A DNA stretch of 52,706 bases from NCBI GenBank assembly GCA_000403295.2, contig KE159610.1:985254-1037959 (forward strand). The letters run 5' to 3'. The position numbers were made by a program, and so were the translations under genes. Below, piece after piece: positions 43,503-49,395 of this stretch. This DNA comes from Lachnospiraceae bacterium M18-1 (GTDB lineage Bacteria; Bacillota; Clostridia; Lachnospirales; Lachnospiraceae). The notes beneath the pieces are model-generated. The model had not been told where the DNA came from and did not search any database. It saw only the letters and a list, made by a program, of their open reading frames with translations. The number at the start of each line of letters is the position of its first letter. Positions within the stretch are counted from its first letter, which is position 1.

Positions 43503-44147
43503 TTATCTTACCACAGCGGTCCCAGAAATCCATTCCTGAACTATACTCAAACCCACATCTAAGATTTTAGCAATCATACCTTCTGACAGGCCCTCTGCCT
43601 TCATGTTAATGGCCGCTTCCTTTTTTCCTTCAAGCCTTCCCTCTGCACGGCCCTCTGTGCGGCCCTCTTCCTTCTTTTCATTCCCGAACTGTTCTACCGC
43701 CTTTTCCTGGTCAAATAAACCCATCATGATGTTAATAACCTCCTTCTCACGCCCGGACAAATACTCACTCAGCACATTTCTGTCCTTACATATCCTTATT
43801 GTTTCCAGCACAGCCTCCCTGGTTTTACCATGCAGTTTCACCTGTTCATTATATACCTTTGTAAAATCTACATACTGGCTGATAATATCGTCTTTTCCCT
43901 CTCCATAAAGCACCTTTACGTTTATTTGAATAAAATCCTGATTTCCTTCAAAGAATTCCTCCGAGAGCCGAATCCATTCCGGCCTGGTTTTACGGTCACC
44001 CACATATATGACGTAGAGTTCCGGCCTGGGAACAACCAGTTTTTTACTCCCATACCGATTTTGTTTGGTACTCTCAATATACTCATTCCATGTATGCGCA
44101 AGATAAAGAAAAATCCTGATAATAATGTTCATCGTCCAATTGGATTG
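43503..44147 (-). pseudogene. Rpn-family PD-(D/E)XK nuclease, 3' part
   Basis: From the junction, SNWTMNIIIRIFLYLAHTWNEYIESTKQNRYGSKKLVVPRPELYVIYVGDRKTRPEWI continues an Rpn-type recombination-promoting nuclease to its typical end (EGRAEGRLEGKKEAAINMKAEGLSEGMIAKILDVGLSIVQEWISG). The matching 5' part is at 47728-48075. Between them lies the RIT element. An internal ATG at 44132 could allow a C-terminal fragment but lacks a ribosome site. Confidence 0.88.
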
Positions 44148-44173
44148 TTATATAAGGTAAATAGTTATGTAAA
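44146..44173 (+). repeat. Left terminal inverted repeat of the RIT element
   Basis: Begins TGTTATATAAGGTAAATAG and ends TTATGTAAA; pairs with 47676-47703 with one mismatch in 28 bp. An additional inverted copy of the inner GTTATGTAAA lies at 44222-44231. Confidence 0.9.
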
Positions 44174-44242
44174 GTTAGCCATCTCAGGCCTGAAATATCA
44201 AGGGTTTGCGACGGCTGTTTCTTTACATAACATTTTACAATG

Positions 44243-45247
44243 CTATAAGGCCTTTTTCAACCAGTCAATCAAATCTTCCTTTTCTTTTTTACCATATTTT
44301 GCTGTTGCATTGATAGATGTACTGTTTTTCTTAAGCTGCTCCTCTTTTATCTTAGGGTTTGTCCTTGCATAAATTTCTGTAGTCAGTATAGATGTATGGC
44401 CGAGCAGATCCCTAATATAGACAAGGTTGACCCCCGCTTCCAACAAATGCATGGCTTTACTGTGGCGGAAGGAGTGGTTCGTAATCCTGCTTTTAAAATA
44501 ATCCGGTTTCTGTTTCTTTCCCATATTTATATATTTATCAATGATATACTGCGTCCCGGCACGTGTCAGCTTTTCGCCTTTACGGTTTACAAACAGGGGA
44601 CAGTCAGGCACATCCCTGCCGCAACGCTTCATATAGACTTTAAGGATCTTTGCAACATTATCGCAGATTGGAACCAGCCTTGTTTTATTCCCTTTTCCGT
44701 GTAGTGTAATGGTATTCGTTGCTCCAAAACGGATATGGCACGGACATAAGTCTGTTAATTCCTGCACCCTTGCCCCGCTCTCATAAAGCAGGACAAGGAC
44801 GGCCAGATCCCTAAGCTGCATGTCATCTTTCTGGTTTGGCAGGGAAAACAGGAAAGTGGTTTCCTCAAGGGTCATATAGCTTACCGGAACAGCAGGGGCT
44901 TTTTTAAAGGGTACGGACAGCACCTGGGCACACTGGCTGAACCCTGTCGGATCACGGTATTGCAGGTACCTGAAAAAAGCATGGATTGCTGCCAGCCGCT
45001 GGTTTCTTGTCCGGATGCTTATTTTACGCGTGTCCTCCAGCCATTTGAGGAATTCTTCAATCCGCTGTGCTGAAAAAGAACTGTATTCCAGCTTTTCTGG
45101 CGGAATACGGTAAGATTTCTTGTAAAATTCCATAAGCTGTACAAACGTATCACGGTACGAGCGGATGGTATGGATGGAAGCAGCAAGCTGGTTTGGAAGA
45201 TAATCAGAAAAATATTTTGTCAGATGGTAAGTAAACGTGTTACCCAT
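44243..45247 (-). CDS. RIT tyrosine recombinase, third gene
   Basis: A 334-residue tyrosine recombinase; ATG 45247 follows GGAG at nine bases; the longer frame upstream is a shadow of the second gene. N-terminal SAM-like core-binding domain (YLPNQLAASIHTIRSYRDTFVQLMEFYKKSY), then the catalytic domain with Arg in YESGARVQELTDL, Lys in LHGKGNKTRLVPI, HSFRHSKAMHLLEAG, GHTSILTTEIYARTN with the nucleophilic Tyr. All catalytic residues are present. It overlaps the second gene by 8 bp. Confidence 0.93.
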   Translation of the reverse strand: MGNTFTYHLTKYFSDYLPNQLAASIHTIRSYRDTFVQLMEFYKKSYRIPPEKLEYSSFSAQRIEEFLKWLEDTRKISIRTRNQRLAAIHAFFRYLQYRDPTGFSQCAQVLSVPFKKAPAVPVSYMTLEETTFLFSLPNQKDDMQLRDLAVLVLLYESGARVQELTDLCPCHIRFGATNTITLHGKGNKTRLVPICDNVAKILKVYMKRCGRDVPDCPLFVNRKGEKLTRAGTQYIIDKYINMGKKQKPDYFKSRITNHSFRHSKAMHLLEAGVNLVYIRDLLGHTSILTTEIYARTNPKIKEEQLKKNSTSINATAKYGKKEKEDLIDWLKKAL

Positions 45248-46238
45248 GGGTCTTTTCTCCAATCTCCGGGAATAACCCCGGTGTGTATTCCCCTGTTTTT
45301 TCGAGGACATTCTCCTGCCTGTCTTCAACCAGGCGGAGATAGTATTCCGTTTCCCGGATATGCTTATGGCCAAGATAAGCTGACAGCAGCGGGAGAGAGG
45401 TATAAGTATCAAACCCTTTTTCCTGCATCTGCTCAAGTGCATAGACACAGAAGGTATGCCTGACATCATGCAGCCTGTGCACTCTTCCGTCCTCCCTGTC
45501 AGGTATACCGGCATTTTTCAGGAGGCTGTGGTACATTTTATAAAGGGAAGCCCTGCAAAAAGGCTTATCTTTATGTTTTGTTCCGTGGAAAAGGAATGTA
45601 TCAGGGCTGGAGTGTGAATGGTATTTACTACAGAATGATCCCATTCGTGAAAGAAGGGTGTCTGATGCAAGGACAATCCTGCTCACACGGTTTTTTCCAT
45701 CCAGCACGGTCACTTTCCCTGTCTGGAAATCGACATCGCAGAGCCTGAGCATAACAACTTCCGATTTTCTGAAACCGCAGCAGTAATACATAGACATCAT
45801 TGCACGGAATGCTTCGTTTTCATAGCAGGGAGCTTTGGAACAGTTTTCATCCAGCAGGGCAAACATGCGGGAGATTTCCTCCTTTGAAAACACATAAGGG
45901 ATATAGTCGCTGTTGAAGGAACGCCTGTCGTCATGCCCGACATAAACATCCTGGTATCCATTAGATATCAGATATTTCCCAAAGGAAGATAGTATGCTCC
46001 TCCTGCGGGACGAAGTCACTTTTCTTTCACCTGGTTTTACTGCTGTCCAGACTTCGTACATTTCCCTTGTAATGACAGGCTCTGATATGCCCATCTCCTT
46101 GAAGAGCCTGTCCATCTCCCGCAACCGATAAAGGTCGGTTTCTGCCACTTTATAGCCACAGGAACGTTTATACTGCACATAGAGGGGAATCTCTTTTGAA
46201 AATGGGCCAGTAAATTTGAAATCATCTATATCACGCAT
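45240..46238 (-). CDS. RIT tyrosine recombinase, second gene
   Basis: A 332-residue tyrosine recombinase. Core-binding part (SKEIPLYVQYKRSCGYKVAETDLYRLREMDRLFKEMG), catalytic Arg in YCCGFRKSEVVMLRL, Lys in VLDGKNRVSRIVL, HDVRHTFCVYALEQM, GHKHIRETEYYLRLVED with Tyr. Overlaps the first gene by 8 bp and the third by 8 bp, so all three are translationally coupled. RIT elements use the three proteins together, but their division of labour is not resolved. Confidence 0.93.
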   Translation of the reverse strand: MRDIDDFKFTGPFSKEIPLYVQYKRSCGYKVAETDLYRLREMDRLFKEMGISEPVITREMYEVWTAVKPGERKVTSSRRRSILSSFGKYLISNGYQDVYVGHDDRRSFNSDYIPYVFSKEEISRMFALLDENCSKAPCYENEAFRAMMSMYYCCGFRKSEVVMLRLCDVDFQTGKVTVLDGKNRVSRIVLASDTLLSRMGSFCSKYHSHSSPDTFLFHGTKHKDKPFCRASLYKMYHSLLKNAGIPDREDGRVHRLHDVRHTFCVYALEQMQEKGFDTYTSLPLLSAYLGHKHIRETEYYLRLVEDRQENVLEKTGEYTPGLFPEIGEKTHG

Positions 46239-47448
46239 TTGGCACCTCCAATGAGACTTCTTTCAGATGTTTCTCATCAATCGTAAGATATATTTCTGTA
46301 GTCAGGGTACTGGTATGCCCAAGGATATCTGATATCCCGCTGACCGGGACATCCCCGGACATAAGGTTTGTTGCTAGGCTGTGCCTTAAGGCGTGCGGCC
46401 CCCGGTGTCTTCCTCCAGAGTCAATGCCTGACTTTTCAATACAGGCTTCTACAACGTTGTAGAGGACTCCTCCGTTTGCATAGGCCTTATGGGGCGCACG
46501 CAGGGTAATAAAGATATGTTCTGTATCGCTGCTCTGATAACGTGCATTTTTAATATAGTCAATAAGTGGATAACGGATTTCATCCAGAAGAGGGAGCATC
46601 TGCGGGTTCCCAGTCTTATGCTGGCTAAACCGAATCGAGCCCCTGTTCCAGTCTATATCTGAAAATCGGAGACGGATGACATCCCCGGCACGCATACCAA
46701 GATAAGCAAAAAAACATACTGCGCAGTATGCAAACTTCCCAGACCTGCTGTCCGTATCAATGGAAGAAAGAATCTGACCAATTTCTTCTTTTGAATAATA
46801 CGACATGAGCTTGCGCCGTGTTTCGTCATGAATCACCGGCAGTGCATCCCAGCCTGAAAAATGGATGTATCCTTCTTCATGAAGCCAGTCCAGGATCATG
46901 CGCAGGATGACTTTGTGCCCTTGTAGAGTTTTTGGTGCATACCCGTCCAGGCTTTCTATAAAGTCATATACATTTTTTCTTTCGGCTCCATGAATTTCTG
47001 TTATTCCAATACCGTCAAGATAATGGATAAACTTTGCGAATGTCAGGATGCGTTTAAACCGGGAGCTTCTTTTAAGTTCCAATCCCTCAATATACATCCT
47101 ATACTCCTGGAAAAGCGCATCATAATTCCTGGGGATTTCTACGCTGTTCGGCTTATTATGAGTCTTGGCATATGTTCCGTTTTTATCAAATTCAAATAAT
47201 GTCAGGAGCGGATACCTGATTGCGTACTGTATGGGAATAGAGGGGTTATACAGGTCAAAATCAAAATGCTCTCCTACAAAATCAGCTGCGTTGGAAAGTG
47301 AAATGGATTCAATTCCTTTCCTTTTGCAGTACTGGCAGAACAGTCCTAAGACCCACCGGCTTTTTCCAAGTATCTGTTGGCTATAGCCATCGTCTGTCAT
47401 CCTATCTAAAAGGGCTTCCGATAGAGGCTCTAAATCATTTTTCAACAT
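46231..47448 (-). CDS. RIT tyrosine recombinase, first gene
   Basis: A 405-residue tyrosine recombinase, the longest of the trio, start ATG 47448 after AAAGGAG. It has an extra N-terminal domain of about 100 residues before the core-binding part (LFQEYRMYIEGLELKRSSRFKRILTFAKFIHYL). Catalytic residues: LGMRAGDVIRLRFSDID, HKTGNPQMLPLL, HALRHSLATNLMSG, GHTSTLTTEIYLTID. Intact. The promoter of the trio should lie in 47449-47675, where a hairpin (GCCCTGTTT/AAACAGAGC) also occurs. Confidence 0.93.
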   Translation of the reverse strand: MLKNDLEPLSEALLDRMTDDGYSQQILGKSRWVLGLFCQYCKRKGIESISLSNAADFVGEHFDFDLYNPSIPIQYAIRYPLLTLFEFDKNGTYAKTHNKPNSVEIPRNYDALFQEYRMYIEGLELKRSSRFKRILTFAKFIHYLDGIGITEIHGAERKNVYDFIESLDGYAPKTLQGHKVILRMILDWLHEEGYIHFSGWDALPVIHDETRRKLMSYYSKEEIGQILSSIDTDSRSGKFAYCAVCFFAYLGMRAGDVIRLRFSDIDWNRGSIRFSQHKTGNPQMLPLLDEIRYPLIDYIKNARYQSSDTEHIFITLRAPHKAYANGGVLYNVVEACIEKSGIDSGGRHRGPHALRHSLATNLMSGDVPVSGISDILGHTSTLTTEIYLTIDEKHLKEVSLEVPNA

Positions 47449-47675
47449 ATTTATCTCCTTTCTTTGGCAGGAACCAAATATCTTTCCTTCATGCTAAAGA
47501 TATAGTAAAATAGGAAGAAATTCGAGTCTGTTTTTGAAAAATTTAAAGACACATAATAAAAGGTTGAGGCTTTTACGCATCGATGGAGCATGGATAAATC
47601 TATTGAGTTAGAGAATTAGTTATGCTATGATAAGACATAAGAAAAAGCCCTGTTTTTTAAGAAACAGAGCCTGTA

Positions 47676-47727
47676 TTTACATAACTATTTACCTTTTATA
47701 ACAGTCGTTATGTTATGCATAACATAA
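47676..47727 (-). repeat. Right terminal inverted repeat and abutting 20-bp palindrome
   Basis: The right terminus (47676-47703) pairs with 44146-44173. It is followed by CAGTCG-type spacer sequence and then TTATGTTATG/CATAACATAA (47708-47727), a perfect palindrome found only on this side and directly touching GGATTG. Confidence 0.88.
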
Positions 47728-48075
47728 GGATTGCGCCTCCAGCATTAAAAGTAATTTTTCACGAACCGTCATACCCAAGTCATTGTATTCCTGGTCAGTG
47801 AAAACATTTTTTATCGTCACATTCCCTATATCTGCTTCTGTTACATCCGTATCTTCCGGATGGATTGCCTGATATAACTGCAGGGCATACTTACGATCCC
47901 CGAACAGGTCACGAAATACAGAATCCTTAGACGTTGTTTTCACATCTGATTTTTGAGAGTCAGGTTCCGGTATTACTGTTCCCTTTCCCGATTCGTCCGT
48001 TCTCATGTGCAAATCAGCAGACTTGATCCGTGCCTCTCCCATTTTGCTGTTTACACCTGTCTCTTTTTTATCCAT
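47728..48075 (-). pseudogene. Rpn-family PD-(D/E)XK nuclease, 5' part
   Basis: Starts at ATG 48075, seven bases after GGAGG. After a variable N-terminus come KDSVFRDLFGDRKYALQLYQAIHP, NVFTDQEYNDLGMTVREKLLLMLEAQS, including the catalytic-type NDL and ExQ motifs. The reading frame enters the RIT element right after EAQS and stops nine bases later (TAA at 47713-47715). Joined to 43503-44141 the gene would encode 328 residues, a normal size for Rpn proteins. Confidence 0.88.
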
Positions 48076-48190
48076 CGTATTTCCTCCGCCTCCCATTCCC
48101 CGCTGCTCTGCCTGTATCTTCATTATACTAAAAGAATGTTTGCTTTTCAAGCATTGGGGAAGCAGGCAACCGGAGATCGTTCCAGATAGG

Positions 48191-48341
48191 TTACTGTTCA
48201 CACGGCGTCGTGCACCCTGCTGCACGGCGTCCGGTCCGGCTAATAAAGTAACACTTGCCATAATATCCAGCCCCTCGCCGAAGGCGACTTAAAATGGGCT
48301 GGATACTGTTACTGAAGCACCCAAAGGGTGTGAACAGTAAC
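48191..48341. mobile_element. MITE-like repeat, 151 bp, in the 3' end of a kinase gene
   Basis: Perfect inverted termini GTTACTGTTCACAC/GTGTGAACAGTAAC (48191-48204, 48328-48341), an 8-bp direct repeat CCAGATAG on both sides (48183-48190, 48342-48349), and internal hairpins (GTGCA/TGCAC, CGCC/GGCG). The first 13 terminal bases match those of the 33245-33439 repeat except for one base. No coding capacity. Confidence 0.87.
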
Positions 48342-49395
48342 CCAGATAGATTTCCACGCAGGTCCCGTCCTCCTGCCGTTTCAGCTTTACAAATCCGCCG
48401 TGCAGAAGGACGATCTCCCTTGTCAGATACAGTCCCAGCCCAAAGCCTTCTGTTTTCCCGGCATTGCTGCCTCTGTAAAAGCGCTGGAACACTCGGGCCT
48501 CGTCCCCCTCCTCGATGCCGGTCCCGTGATCGCTGACCCAGATCCGCACGAACATTTCATTTTGCTCCGCGCCCAGCAGGATCTCCGTTCCTTCCATCTG
48601 ACCCGCGTCGGGCAGTGTGTTCTCTCTTTCGTCTCGCTCCGCATCCGGCAGGATCTCCGTTCCTTCCATCTGACCCGTGCCAGGCAGTGTGCTCTCTCTT
48701 TCGCTTTGCTGCGCGTCCGGCAGGATCTCACCGCCTGACCCTGGCGGGGAATATTTGACCGCATTATCCAACAGGTTGAAGACCGCCTCCCCCAGCCAGT
48801 CCGCGTCGTGGGGATGGAACAGCTTTTCCGGGAACCGGGTGCAAATCCGCAGCCCCCGCCTGCGCGCCTTTTCCTCTGCCTGGCTGACCGCCTCCGACAG
48901 CGTCAGCAAAAGATCCGTGTCCAGCGGGTGGATCTGGATGATCCGATGCTCCAGCCTGGACATTTTGATGAAGCTTTCCGCAAGGAAATGGATCTTTTTT
49001 TCGGAAAGCATCACCGCCTTGAGATAGCTTTTCTGTTCCTCTCTGCTCAGATCCTCATCCTGCAGAAAATCCAGATATGTCTCAATATTGGCAAGGGGCG
49101 TCCGCATCTGGTGGGCGATCTCCGTGATCAGATTTTTGATGGAGTCCCGGTCCTGTTCCAGACGCGCATGGTACCCCTTCGTCATGCTCTGCAGCCGGAA
49201 AAGCTGGTGGGTGATCTTCGATAACAGCGTCTCCTGATCAGCCCTCCGCTCTGGAAGCTCCCTGCCGTCCAGTATGCACTCCAGCATGGACGAGATCTCT
49301 GAAAGCTCCCGCTCCCTGTATTTTCCCTGCCAGTGCCAGACGGCGCCGGTGCTTAAAACAGCCAGTGCCGTTGTGATGATACACCATATTCCCAT
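48289..49395 (-). CDS. Sensor histidine kinase with an internal 24-residue repeat
   Basis: A 368-residue kinase, start ATG 49395 after GGGGGG. One N-terminal membrane helix, HisKA domain with His95 in ITEIAHQMRTPLANIETYL, N box LLDNAVKYSPP, G1 DHGTGIEEGD, F box VFQRFYRG and G2 GFGLGLYLTREIVLLHGG. Between the N box and G1 is an insertion of about 55 residues made from a 24-residue repeat (GTEILPDAERDERENTLPDAGQME-type), from 72-bp DNA repeats at 48577-48720. The last native codon is at 48343; the final 18 residues (GYCSHPLG...) come from the MITE. Without the MITE the frame would run on to a TGA after ERSPVACFPNA. Confidence 0.88.
   Translation of the reverse strand: MGIWCIITTALAVLSTGAVWHWQGKYRERELSEISSMLECILDGRELPERRADQETLLSKITHQLFRLQSMTKGYHARLEQDRDSIKNLITEIAHQMRTPLANIETYLDFLQDEDLSREEQKSYLKAVMLSEKKIHFLAESFIKMSRLEHRIIQIHPLDTDLLLTLSEAVSQAEEKARRRGLRICTRFPEKLFHPHDADWLGEAVFNLLDNAVKYSPPGSGGEILPDAQQSERESTLPGTGQMEGTEILPDAERDERENTLPDAGQMEGTEILLGAEQNEMFVRIWVSDHGTGIEEGDEARVFQRFYRGSNAGKTEGFGLGLYLTREIVLLHGGFVKLKRQEDGTCVEIYLGYCSHPLGASVTVSSPF
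48577..48720. repeat. Two 72-bp coding tandem repeats in the kinase gene
   Basis: Units at 48577-48648 and 48649-48720 share CAGGATCTCCGTTCCTTCC and most of the rest; a partial third starts at 48721. They lie between the N box and the G1 box codons. Confidence 0.9.

Follow-up and report, generated by a model that had tools for sequence, protein, structure and literature searches.

Introduction

Where do recombinase-in-trio (RIT) elements insert, and what do they keep of the places they have been? The question is raised by a stretch of 52,706 nucleotides from Lachnospiraceae bacterium M18-1 (contig KE159610.1; hereafter the window), in which a RIT element divides an Rpn-like gene into two halves and the insert carries a short spacer and a palindrome at one end only. 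In this study, we examine this locus, its intact relatives, the same site in a second strain, and RIT loci from other genomes. The comparison points to RITs as transposons that are specific for a target family, indifferent to orientation, and equipped with 6-bp coupling sequences, a reading that we take to be the best explanation of the whole, with a probability of roughly 0.7.

RITs have been known since 2009–2013. In PMC3414803, they are defined as three adjacent same-strand tyrosine recombinase genes with 4–8-bp overlaps, and its section 11 describes ends with a 28–29-bp inverted repeat, an overlapping palindromic sequence, and end variation. PMC2864759 places rit elements in radC of two species and in an IS66 tnpA gene, an early hint of recurrent targets. 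Table 1 of PMC10214605 gives RITs the entry NT under target specificity, empty site, and movement, with a footnote on target specificity stating that there has been no formal experimental test. The passages of the RIT literature compared here contain no 6-bp spacing rule, no pattern of two cores plus a memory spacer, no palindrome side fixed by the target, and no targeting of catalytic codons.

Results

The Element and the Gene It Divides

The features of the locus, from the start of the split gene to its end, are as follows; "core" denotes the 6-bp sequence at each junction.

47734..48075, minus strand: N-terminal half of the split Rpn-like gene, 114 codons, ending ...LLMLEA (open reading frame; a single residue differs from the intact homologue P0001)
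47728..47733, minus strand: core copy a, palindrome side; coding strand CAATCC, the Gln-Ser codons of EAQS
47708..47727, no strand: 20-bp perfect palindrome P, TTATGTTATGCATAACATAA; two recombinase-arm-like halves back to back
47702..47707, minus strand: inner 6-bp spacer b; coding strand CAGTCG, also Gln-Ser
47676..47701, minus strand: RitA-side terminal inverted repeat, two direct arms 17 bp apart (repeat search)
46231..47448, minus strand: RitA, tyrosine recombinase, 405 aa (open reading frame, domain, homology to pHG1 RitA)
45240..46238, minus strand: RitB, tyrosine recombinase, 332 aa, overlapping ritA by 8 bp (open reading frame, domain, homology)
44243..45247, minus strand: RitC, XerC/D-like tyrosine recombinase, 334 aa, overlapping ritB by 8 bp (domain, homology)
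44148..44173, plus strand: RitC-side terminal inverted repeat (repeat search)
44142..44147, minus strand: core copy c, other side; coding strand CAATCC
43503..44141, minus strand: C-terminal half of the split Rpn-like gene, NWTMNIIIR... (open reading frame; sub-threshold TIGR01784; uninterrupted P0001)

The original prediction described one gene in two same-strand halves, separated by three overlapping tyrosine recombinase genes between inverted termini. All of this was borne out: both halves (47734–48075 and 43503–44141) lie on the minus strand, the recombinase genes overlap by 8 bp at 45240–45247 and 46231–46238, and the termini at 44148–44173 and 47676–47701 pair at 25 of 26 positions (or over 31 nt at 94%). 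The proposed recombinase-in-trio layout likewise agrees with gene order and with homology to RitA/B/C of Cupriavidus necator pHG1. Each product contains a Phage_integrase domain and has its best match within the pHG1 trio, in the same order (RitA 27%, RitB 30%, and RitC 38% identity), and a XerC-like recombinase and XerD are the two best matches to RitC among solved structures. The tyrosine recombinase catalytic residues R, K, HxxR, H, and Y are visible by eye in all three translations. No further likely gene appears between the termini in the window's list of open reading frames. The insert measures 3,586 bp including one core copy and 3,554 bp from repeat to repeat. With an adjacent same-strand trio overlapping by 8 bp (4–8 bp in RITs), this length (~3.5 kb), and its terminal repeats of 25/26 or 31 nt (~28–34 bp), the window element is a RIT; it resembles the Cupriavidus pHG1/CH34 type in its overlapping ritA-ritB-ritC genes, size, terminal inverted repeats, and homologous proteins, and shares with the pHG1 element the palindrome-spacer module described below, under relaxed thresholds.

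The sequence GGATTG, described at each junction, is present at both (44142–44147 and 47728–47733), but only the left copy adjoins its inverted repeat, that on the RitC side. On the right, going outward, the inverted repeat is followed by CAGTCG (47702–47707), the perfect palindrome TTATGTTATGCATAACATAA (47708–47727), and only then GGATTG. The insert is thus asymmetric, with a 6-bp spacer and a 20-bp palindrome on the RitA side only. The expectation that this insertion would give the exact element ends therefore held in part: a single insertion misleads on the palindrome and inner spacer, because these are not tied to one element end and lie at the other end in a second strain. GGATTG also occurs nearby at 44983 and 47862, so the six bases alone prove little, and the reading frame and the relatives carry the case.

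Joining the halves with one GGATTG copy restores a frame of 328 codons. A search with the joined protein found 4,302 homologues, the best 120 of which were listed, and the anticipated uninterrupted relative of 328 residues is the best match, P0001 (328 aa, unsplit, 98% identity over the full length). Among those 120, the junction is traversed by P0001, P0002, and P0004, and many more matches have 100% coverage; the nearest genome compared (G001) holds an uninterrupted paralogue with 80% identity across residues 1–328. That the halves are separate genes with a coincidental joined frame is refuted by these uninterrupted homologues; we found no point in its support, and its probability is negligible. 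On this comparison of sequences, the Rpn-like gene was originally whole, and the element entered and split it at the EAQS Gln-Ser codons. The surrounding residues are variable (EAQA-SWTKN in P0001, EAQS-NWTMN in the joined gene). The label "Rpn" is used because of TIGR01784 matches that are sub-threshold (C-terminal half 29.3 bits, intact P0001 26.2 bits, cut-off 52.1). EAQ is presumably the catalytic motif of the Rpn nuclease. The insertion had been placed right after this motif; the location at EAQS stands, but the core itself is the Gln-Ser codon pair of EAQS.

The Same Site in a Second Strain

In Schaedlerella arabinosiphila DSM 106076 (locus L011), the same gene is split at exactly the same base pair, and the element faces the opposite way from that in the window. 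The palindrome is identical in the two strains and lies beside the N-terminal half in both, despite the inversion of the element. One flank agrees at 99.4% over 11.6 kb and the other, in pieces, at 95–98%. An assembly error is an unlikely source of the inverted allele, which stands in a polished 6.35-Mb contig and is accompanied by spacer and single-nucleotide differences.

A single ancestral insertion that flipped in place between its inverted ends, as a switch, would account for the shared gene, base pair, and palindrome, as well as for similar ages of the parts (differences of 1/639 bases in the C-terminal half, 1/342 in the N-terminal half, and 7/3,554 in the element). We favored this reading at first and lowered it because the inner spacers differ: on the coding strand, the window has CAGTCG and DSM 106076 has CAAGCT, with 3 of 6 bases different, and we see no way in which a flip, or excision followed by re-insertion here, could convert one into the other. 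CAAGCT encodes Gln-Ala, matching EAQA of P0001, and CAGTCG encodes Gln-Ser. In addition, the DSM 106076 element is closer to a copy in a metagenome-assembled genome of another genus (L038/L010; 2/3,486 bases) than to that of the window (7/3,554), the other-genus copy being 4/3,486 from the window, although with three sequences the root is unsettled. Other target groups, in different genomes, also show both orientations with the palindrome side fixed. In-place flipping is accordingly doubtful, if still a serious candidate. We lean toward two independent insertions at the same codons over one insertion plus an exchange that brought in a new spacer.

The other-genus copy lies on a 3,774-bp contig that matches window 44162–47647 at 99.9% and has both outermost ends replaced by unlike DNA; either the contig is chimeric or the ends were lost. 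A diverged RIT of another genus (RitA/B/C 55/53/63% identical) occupies the same EA-QS codons of another Rpn-like gene. A search of 397 family genomes for EAQS followed by the palindrome matched only G001 and G276, with no further Rpn-EAQS insertion there. The corresponding EAQA pattern matched nothing in 12 genomes of the genus, so the source presumed for the CAAGCT spacer did not turn up among them. Viral contigs scanned with RitB and with the EAQS-palindrome pattern gave no match.

A Recurrent Palindrome Module

RIT loci were collected by RitB searches, which matched 9 of 299 genomes at family level (E<=1e-40), 23 of 392 at order level (E<=1e-30), and 6 plasmid records; together with a genus search and a scan of genome contigs, these gave a first table of 46 loci, including the window and L011. 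A held-out set of 18 comprised 15 loci from a class-level search (16 of 391 genomes matched) and three plasmid RITs of Rhodococcus/Bradyrhizobium. A partial RitB place (G392:C28) and a RitC fragment (L021) were excluded. The module was defined by fixed criteria as a palindrome of 20 bp in which 8 or more of the 10 pairs match, followed by 6 bp, an arm, 7 bp, and a second arm.

By these criteria, the module is present at 30 of the 46 first loci and 16 of the 18 held-out loci (46/64 in total), at unrelated targets that include named Bacillota, Actinomycetota, and Pseudomonadota. Relaxed thresholds add L075 and the canonical pHG1 element (L070), and it is through these alone that the two enter the 32-locus table used below. 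The palindrome is on the RitA side in 21 and on the RitC side in 11 of these 32 loci, and in 6 and 10, respectively, of the 16 held-out loci. A chance palindrome was rejected by a control scan of both strands of the window plus 120 kb of G001, which gave 7 matches in 344,670 positions, 2 of them the true sites. Nor is the palindrome at all likely to be the scar of another element or a host feature predating the RIT. Such an origin would suit its constant side relative to the Rpn-like gene in the two strains, whichever way the element is oriented; it is contradicted by the recurrence of the same module at the same 6-bp distance in 46 of 64 RIT loci at unrelated targets and by the intact homologue, which encodes no such insert.

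The 18 loci that fail the fixed criteria include L070 and L075. Eight others lie close to a contig end on one or both sides (L030, L034, L037, L044, L045, L047, L064, and L128), L038 has its outer ends replaced, and L073, L074, L089, and L093 have no clear paired repeat. At L020 (G006:C4), a palindrome-less RIT is flanked by the starts of two different ParA genes, both cut at GGVG (Walker A) and both pointing toward the element.

Targets and the Side of the Palindrome

Targets were named from Pfam/NCBIfam matches of the separate halves, from homology to the window's gene, or from junctions inspected by eye; at L040 and L051, the automatic reading frame was replaced by a longer outward one. The split gene could be named, with the core at a conserved motif, at 32 of 64 loci. 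Seven target groups account for 24 of these, with both kinds of Walker A counted as one group and the window and L011 being one gene in two strains:

Rpn-like gene: window, L011, L033, L091; P on N-terminal half
IS21 transposase, VPDN or VCDN: L071, L072, L082, L087; P on N-terminal half
IS21 transposase, KGxxE or KSxxE: L040, L083, L129; P on C-terminal half
IstB Walker B: L124, L126 (N-terminal halves end at profile position 159, L126 resumes at 163); P on N-terminal half
Walker A: IstB L130 and L137 (both between positions 102 and 106), AAA_31 L041, ResIII L076; P on C-terminal half
Reverse transcriptase, PQGG or LQGG: L068, L086, L092, L139, L140; P on N-terminal half
Tyrosine recombinase, HxLRH or RHxFAxH: L051, L095; P on C-terminal half

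Within all seven groups, the side of the palindrome is constant without exception, and each group has both RitA-facing and RitC-facing cases; in the tyrosine recombinase group, the RitA-facing case is L051, which has P at both contig ends. Insertions recur at single profile positions, namely 102 to 106 and 159 to 163 in IstB and 121 to 125 in RVT_1, where N-terminal halves end at 121 (L086, L092) and C-terminal halves start at 125 (L092, L139). Further motif targets are:

HATPase_c_4 at IVH-K/R-D/N-Y: L019, L036, L037
ParA at GGVG: L020
Mutator transposase, between positions 166 and 171: L127
IS21 transposase at PKDKA: L135
Asparagine synthase at SGGIDS: L090
C5 methylase at QRRKR: L079

Genes of mobile elements make up 20 of the 32 motif targets (IS21 transposase/IstB 12, group II intron reverse transcriptase 5, tyrosine recombinase 2, and Mutator transposase 1). 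The remaining loci are cut off, unnamed, or without a recognized motif. L068 and L051 lie on short contigs that have the palindrome at either end and similar target flanks on both sides; the assembler probably merged two oppositely oriented copies in each.

Codon Phase and the Three Six-Mers

When P lies on the N-terminal half, the core is two whole codons (17/17 curated loci): Gln-Ser, His-Gln, His-Ala or His-Lys, Asn-Leu, Asn-Met, Gly-Gly, Asp-Glu, Ala-Ile, or Asp-Ala. When P lies on the C-terminal half, it is shifted by one base (7/7). With numbering that starts at the palindrome, the third codon positions are thus positions 3 and 6 of the core in 24 of 24 loci on either coding strand, although these loci were picked for a nameable target, share target families, and are not 24 independent tests.

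For each locus, we compared the core beside the palindrome (a), the reverse complement of the inner spacer (b), and the core at the other end (c). Hamming distances between a and b sum to 46 over 32 loci, against 139.5 when shuffled (minimum of 5,000 shuffles, 111), and those between a and c to 20 over 26 loci, against 112.5 (minimum 81). The held-out loci behave alike, with 11 over 16 loci for a and b (66.2 shuffled, minimum 38) and 16 over 15 loci for a and c (62.4, minimum 40). Cores a and c are identical at 14 of 26 first and 8 of 15 held-out loci; at L051 and L068, where P stands at either contig end, "c" is an inner spacer, and without these two the outer cores agree at 12 of 24. Identity of a and b is found at 11 of 32 first and 10 of 16 held-out loci. 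Differences between a and b fall at positions 3 and 6 in 31 of 57 cases over 48 loci (19 expected, p 0.0009). Pairs of differing six-mers encode the same residues in 18 of 32 cases, against 3.0 expected from random changes, in a test into which 28 curated loci entered, 4 without a frame were dropped (L140, L130, L095, and L051), and 24 were used, the pairs within a locus not being independent. The inner spacer thus resembles the target, often down to the same encoded residues, as would be expected of a piece captured from an earlier target.

Two loci of one genome (G425), L080 inside an HlyD-like gene and L081 beside a methyltransferase-like open reading frame, have the inner spacer CCCACA, identical to that of L041, whose target is the Val-Gly of a Walker A motif; both are probable off-target landings. 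The two copies have a common palindrome, palindrome-side core TCTAAA, and inner spacer, and differ in the other-end core (TCTAAA and CATATA). At L036 and L138, the palindrome-side core ends in GCA (CATGCA, GATGCA) and the other core is CATAAG or GATAGA.

Discussion

Proposed Route of Insertion

In Xer-type sites, recombinase arms surround a 6-bp spacer. The RIT arms (TTATGnnnnn) flank their 6-bp spacers in the same layout, and the element would insert by tyrosine recombinase strand exchange at a 6-bp core, here the Gln-Ser codon pair of EAQS. RIT subfamilies probably recognize the coding DNA of motifs conserved in multi-copy gene families. If the element were excised between a and c, the product would be a circle in which the joined ends read inverted repeat, X, P, Y, inverted repeat, X and Y being the two spacers. 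Because P is symmetric, it would offer two equivalent sites, and the next integration could proceed through either X or Y. Use of either spacer would leave P fixed on one side of the target with the recombinase genes facing either way, and the unused spacer would be kept inside the element as a 6-bp record of the earlier target. We infer the circle, the conservative exchange, the use of both spacers, and the action of all three recombinases.

A strand-biased copy-out/copy-in route, as in strand-biased circularizing integrative elements (SEs), could replace conservative cut and paste. In SEs, a 6-bp spacer likewise serves as fingerprint and footprint, according to PMC10214605, and L080 and L081 share P and inner spacer within one genome. 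The window element, however, has no fourth gene inside its termini, and identity of a and c at 14 of 26 loci is not expected under a strict fingerprint/footprint rule unless old and new cores were alike. We hold this route to be less likely than not.

Several observations weigh against the double-site reading. No movement, circle, or empty-site product has been observed, and the case for mobility is comparative. Targets were named after the junctions had been seen, so the calling of a motif as conserved was not blind. No motif was recognized at L035, L080 (HlyD), L081, L094 (CHAP/lysozyme), or L138 (IS200). At L035, L077, L079, L080, L081, L088, and L090, b differs from a at 2–4 of 6 bases with no motif to explain it. 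The outer cores are unequal at 12 of 26 loci, and a–c differences show no excess at positions 3 and 6 (13/36, 41 loci). L019, L020, and L136 have both repeats and no module by the fixed criteria; given such two-ended loci, P may be dispensable or have been lost. The double-site mechanism leaves both the P-less loci and the a–c differences unexplained.

A stronger version would make RITs, as a family, transposons that home to catalytic motifs: one motif per lineage, a fixed, wobble-tolerant codon phase, a palindromic double site integrating via either end, and a 6-bp ticket from the earlier victim that amounts to a readable travel history, with three recombinases needed for three kinds of half-site (inverted repeat, palindrome, and target). 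We hold this version tentatively, at somewhat less than even odds.

Relation to Other Systems and Implications

Tn916 likewise carries 6-bp coupling sequences from an earlier site. It differs in having one integrase plus an excisionase and loose AT-rich targets, and RITs have three recombinases, a palindromic double site, and stricter targets; the three recombinases of the window do not fit the Tn916 family. Inteins and homing endonuclease genes also sit in DNA for conserved active-site motifs, which are stable across hosts. Inteins splice out, whereas a RIT breaks the gene it enters and uses recombinases in place of double-strand-break repair. A heteroduplex spacer of Tn916 is mentioned in PMC10214605. 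SE and GInt elements share with RITs several tyrosine recombinases and specific-site integration (PMC10214605 and PMC5385486), and SEs the 6-bp fingerprint/footprint spacer, but they have four genes plus cargo, and the passages compared describe no palindrome module for them. The window element has three recombinase genes between its termini and not the four-gene recombination module of the SE/GInt type.

The rules set out here (P, 6 bp, arm, 7 bp, arm; a 6-bp core; a spacer from an earlier target; wobble at positions 3 and 6) place most of the RIT ends examined. They also predict the circle junction to the base, so that mobility and the need for three recombinases become directly testable. 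If true, a preference for catalytic codons would account for the ability of a DNA transposon to locate a constant address in hosts that differ widely. Read from sequence, the data suggest that conserved active-site codons are a frequent target of such transposons, which keep a six-letter record of an earlier landing site.

A Neighboring Repeat

Beyond the split gene, the window contains at 48189–48343 a repeat of ~155 bp with inverted ends (GGTTACTGTTCACAC... and GGGTTACTGTTCACACCC...), resembling a miniature inverted-repeat transposable element. It overlaps the end of a histidine-kinase-like open reading frame and has a second match elsewhere in the G001 region.

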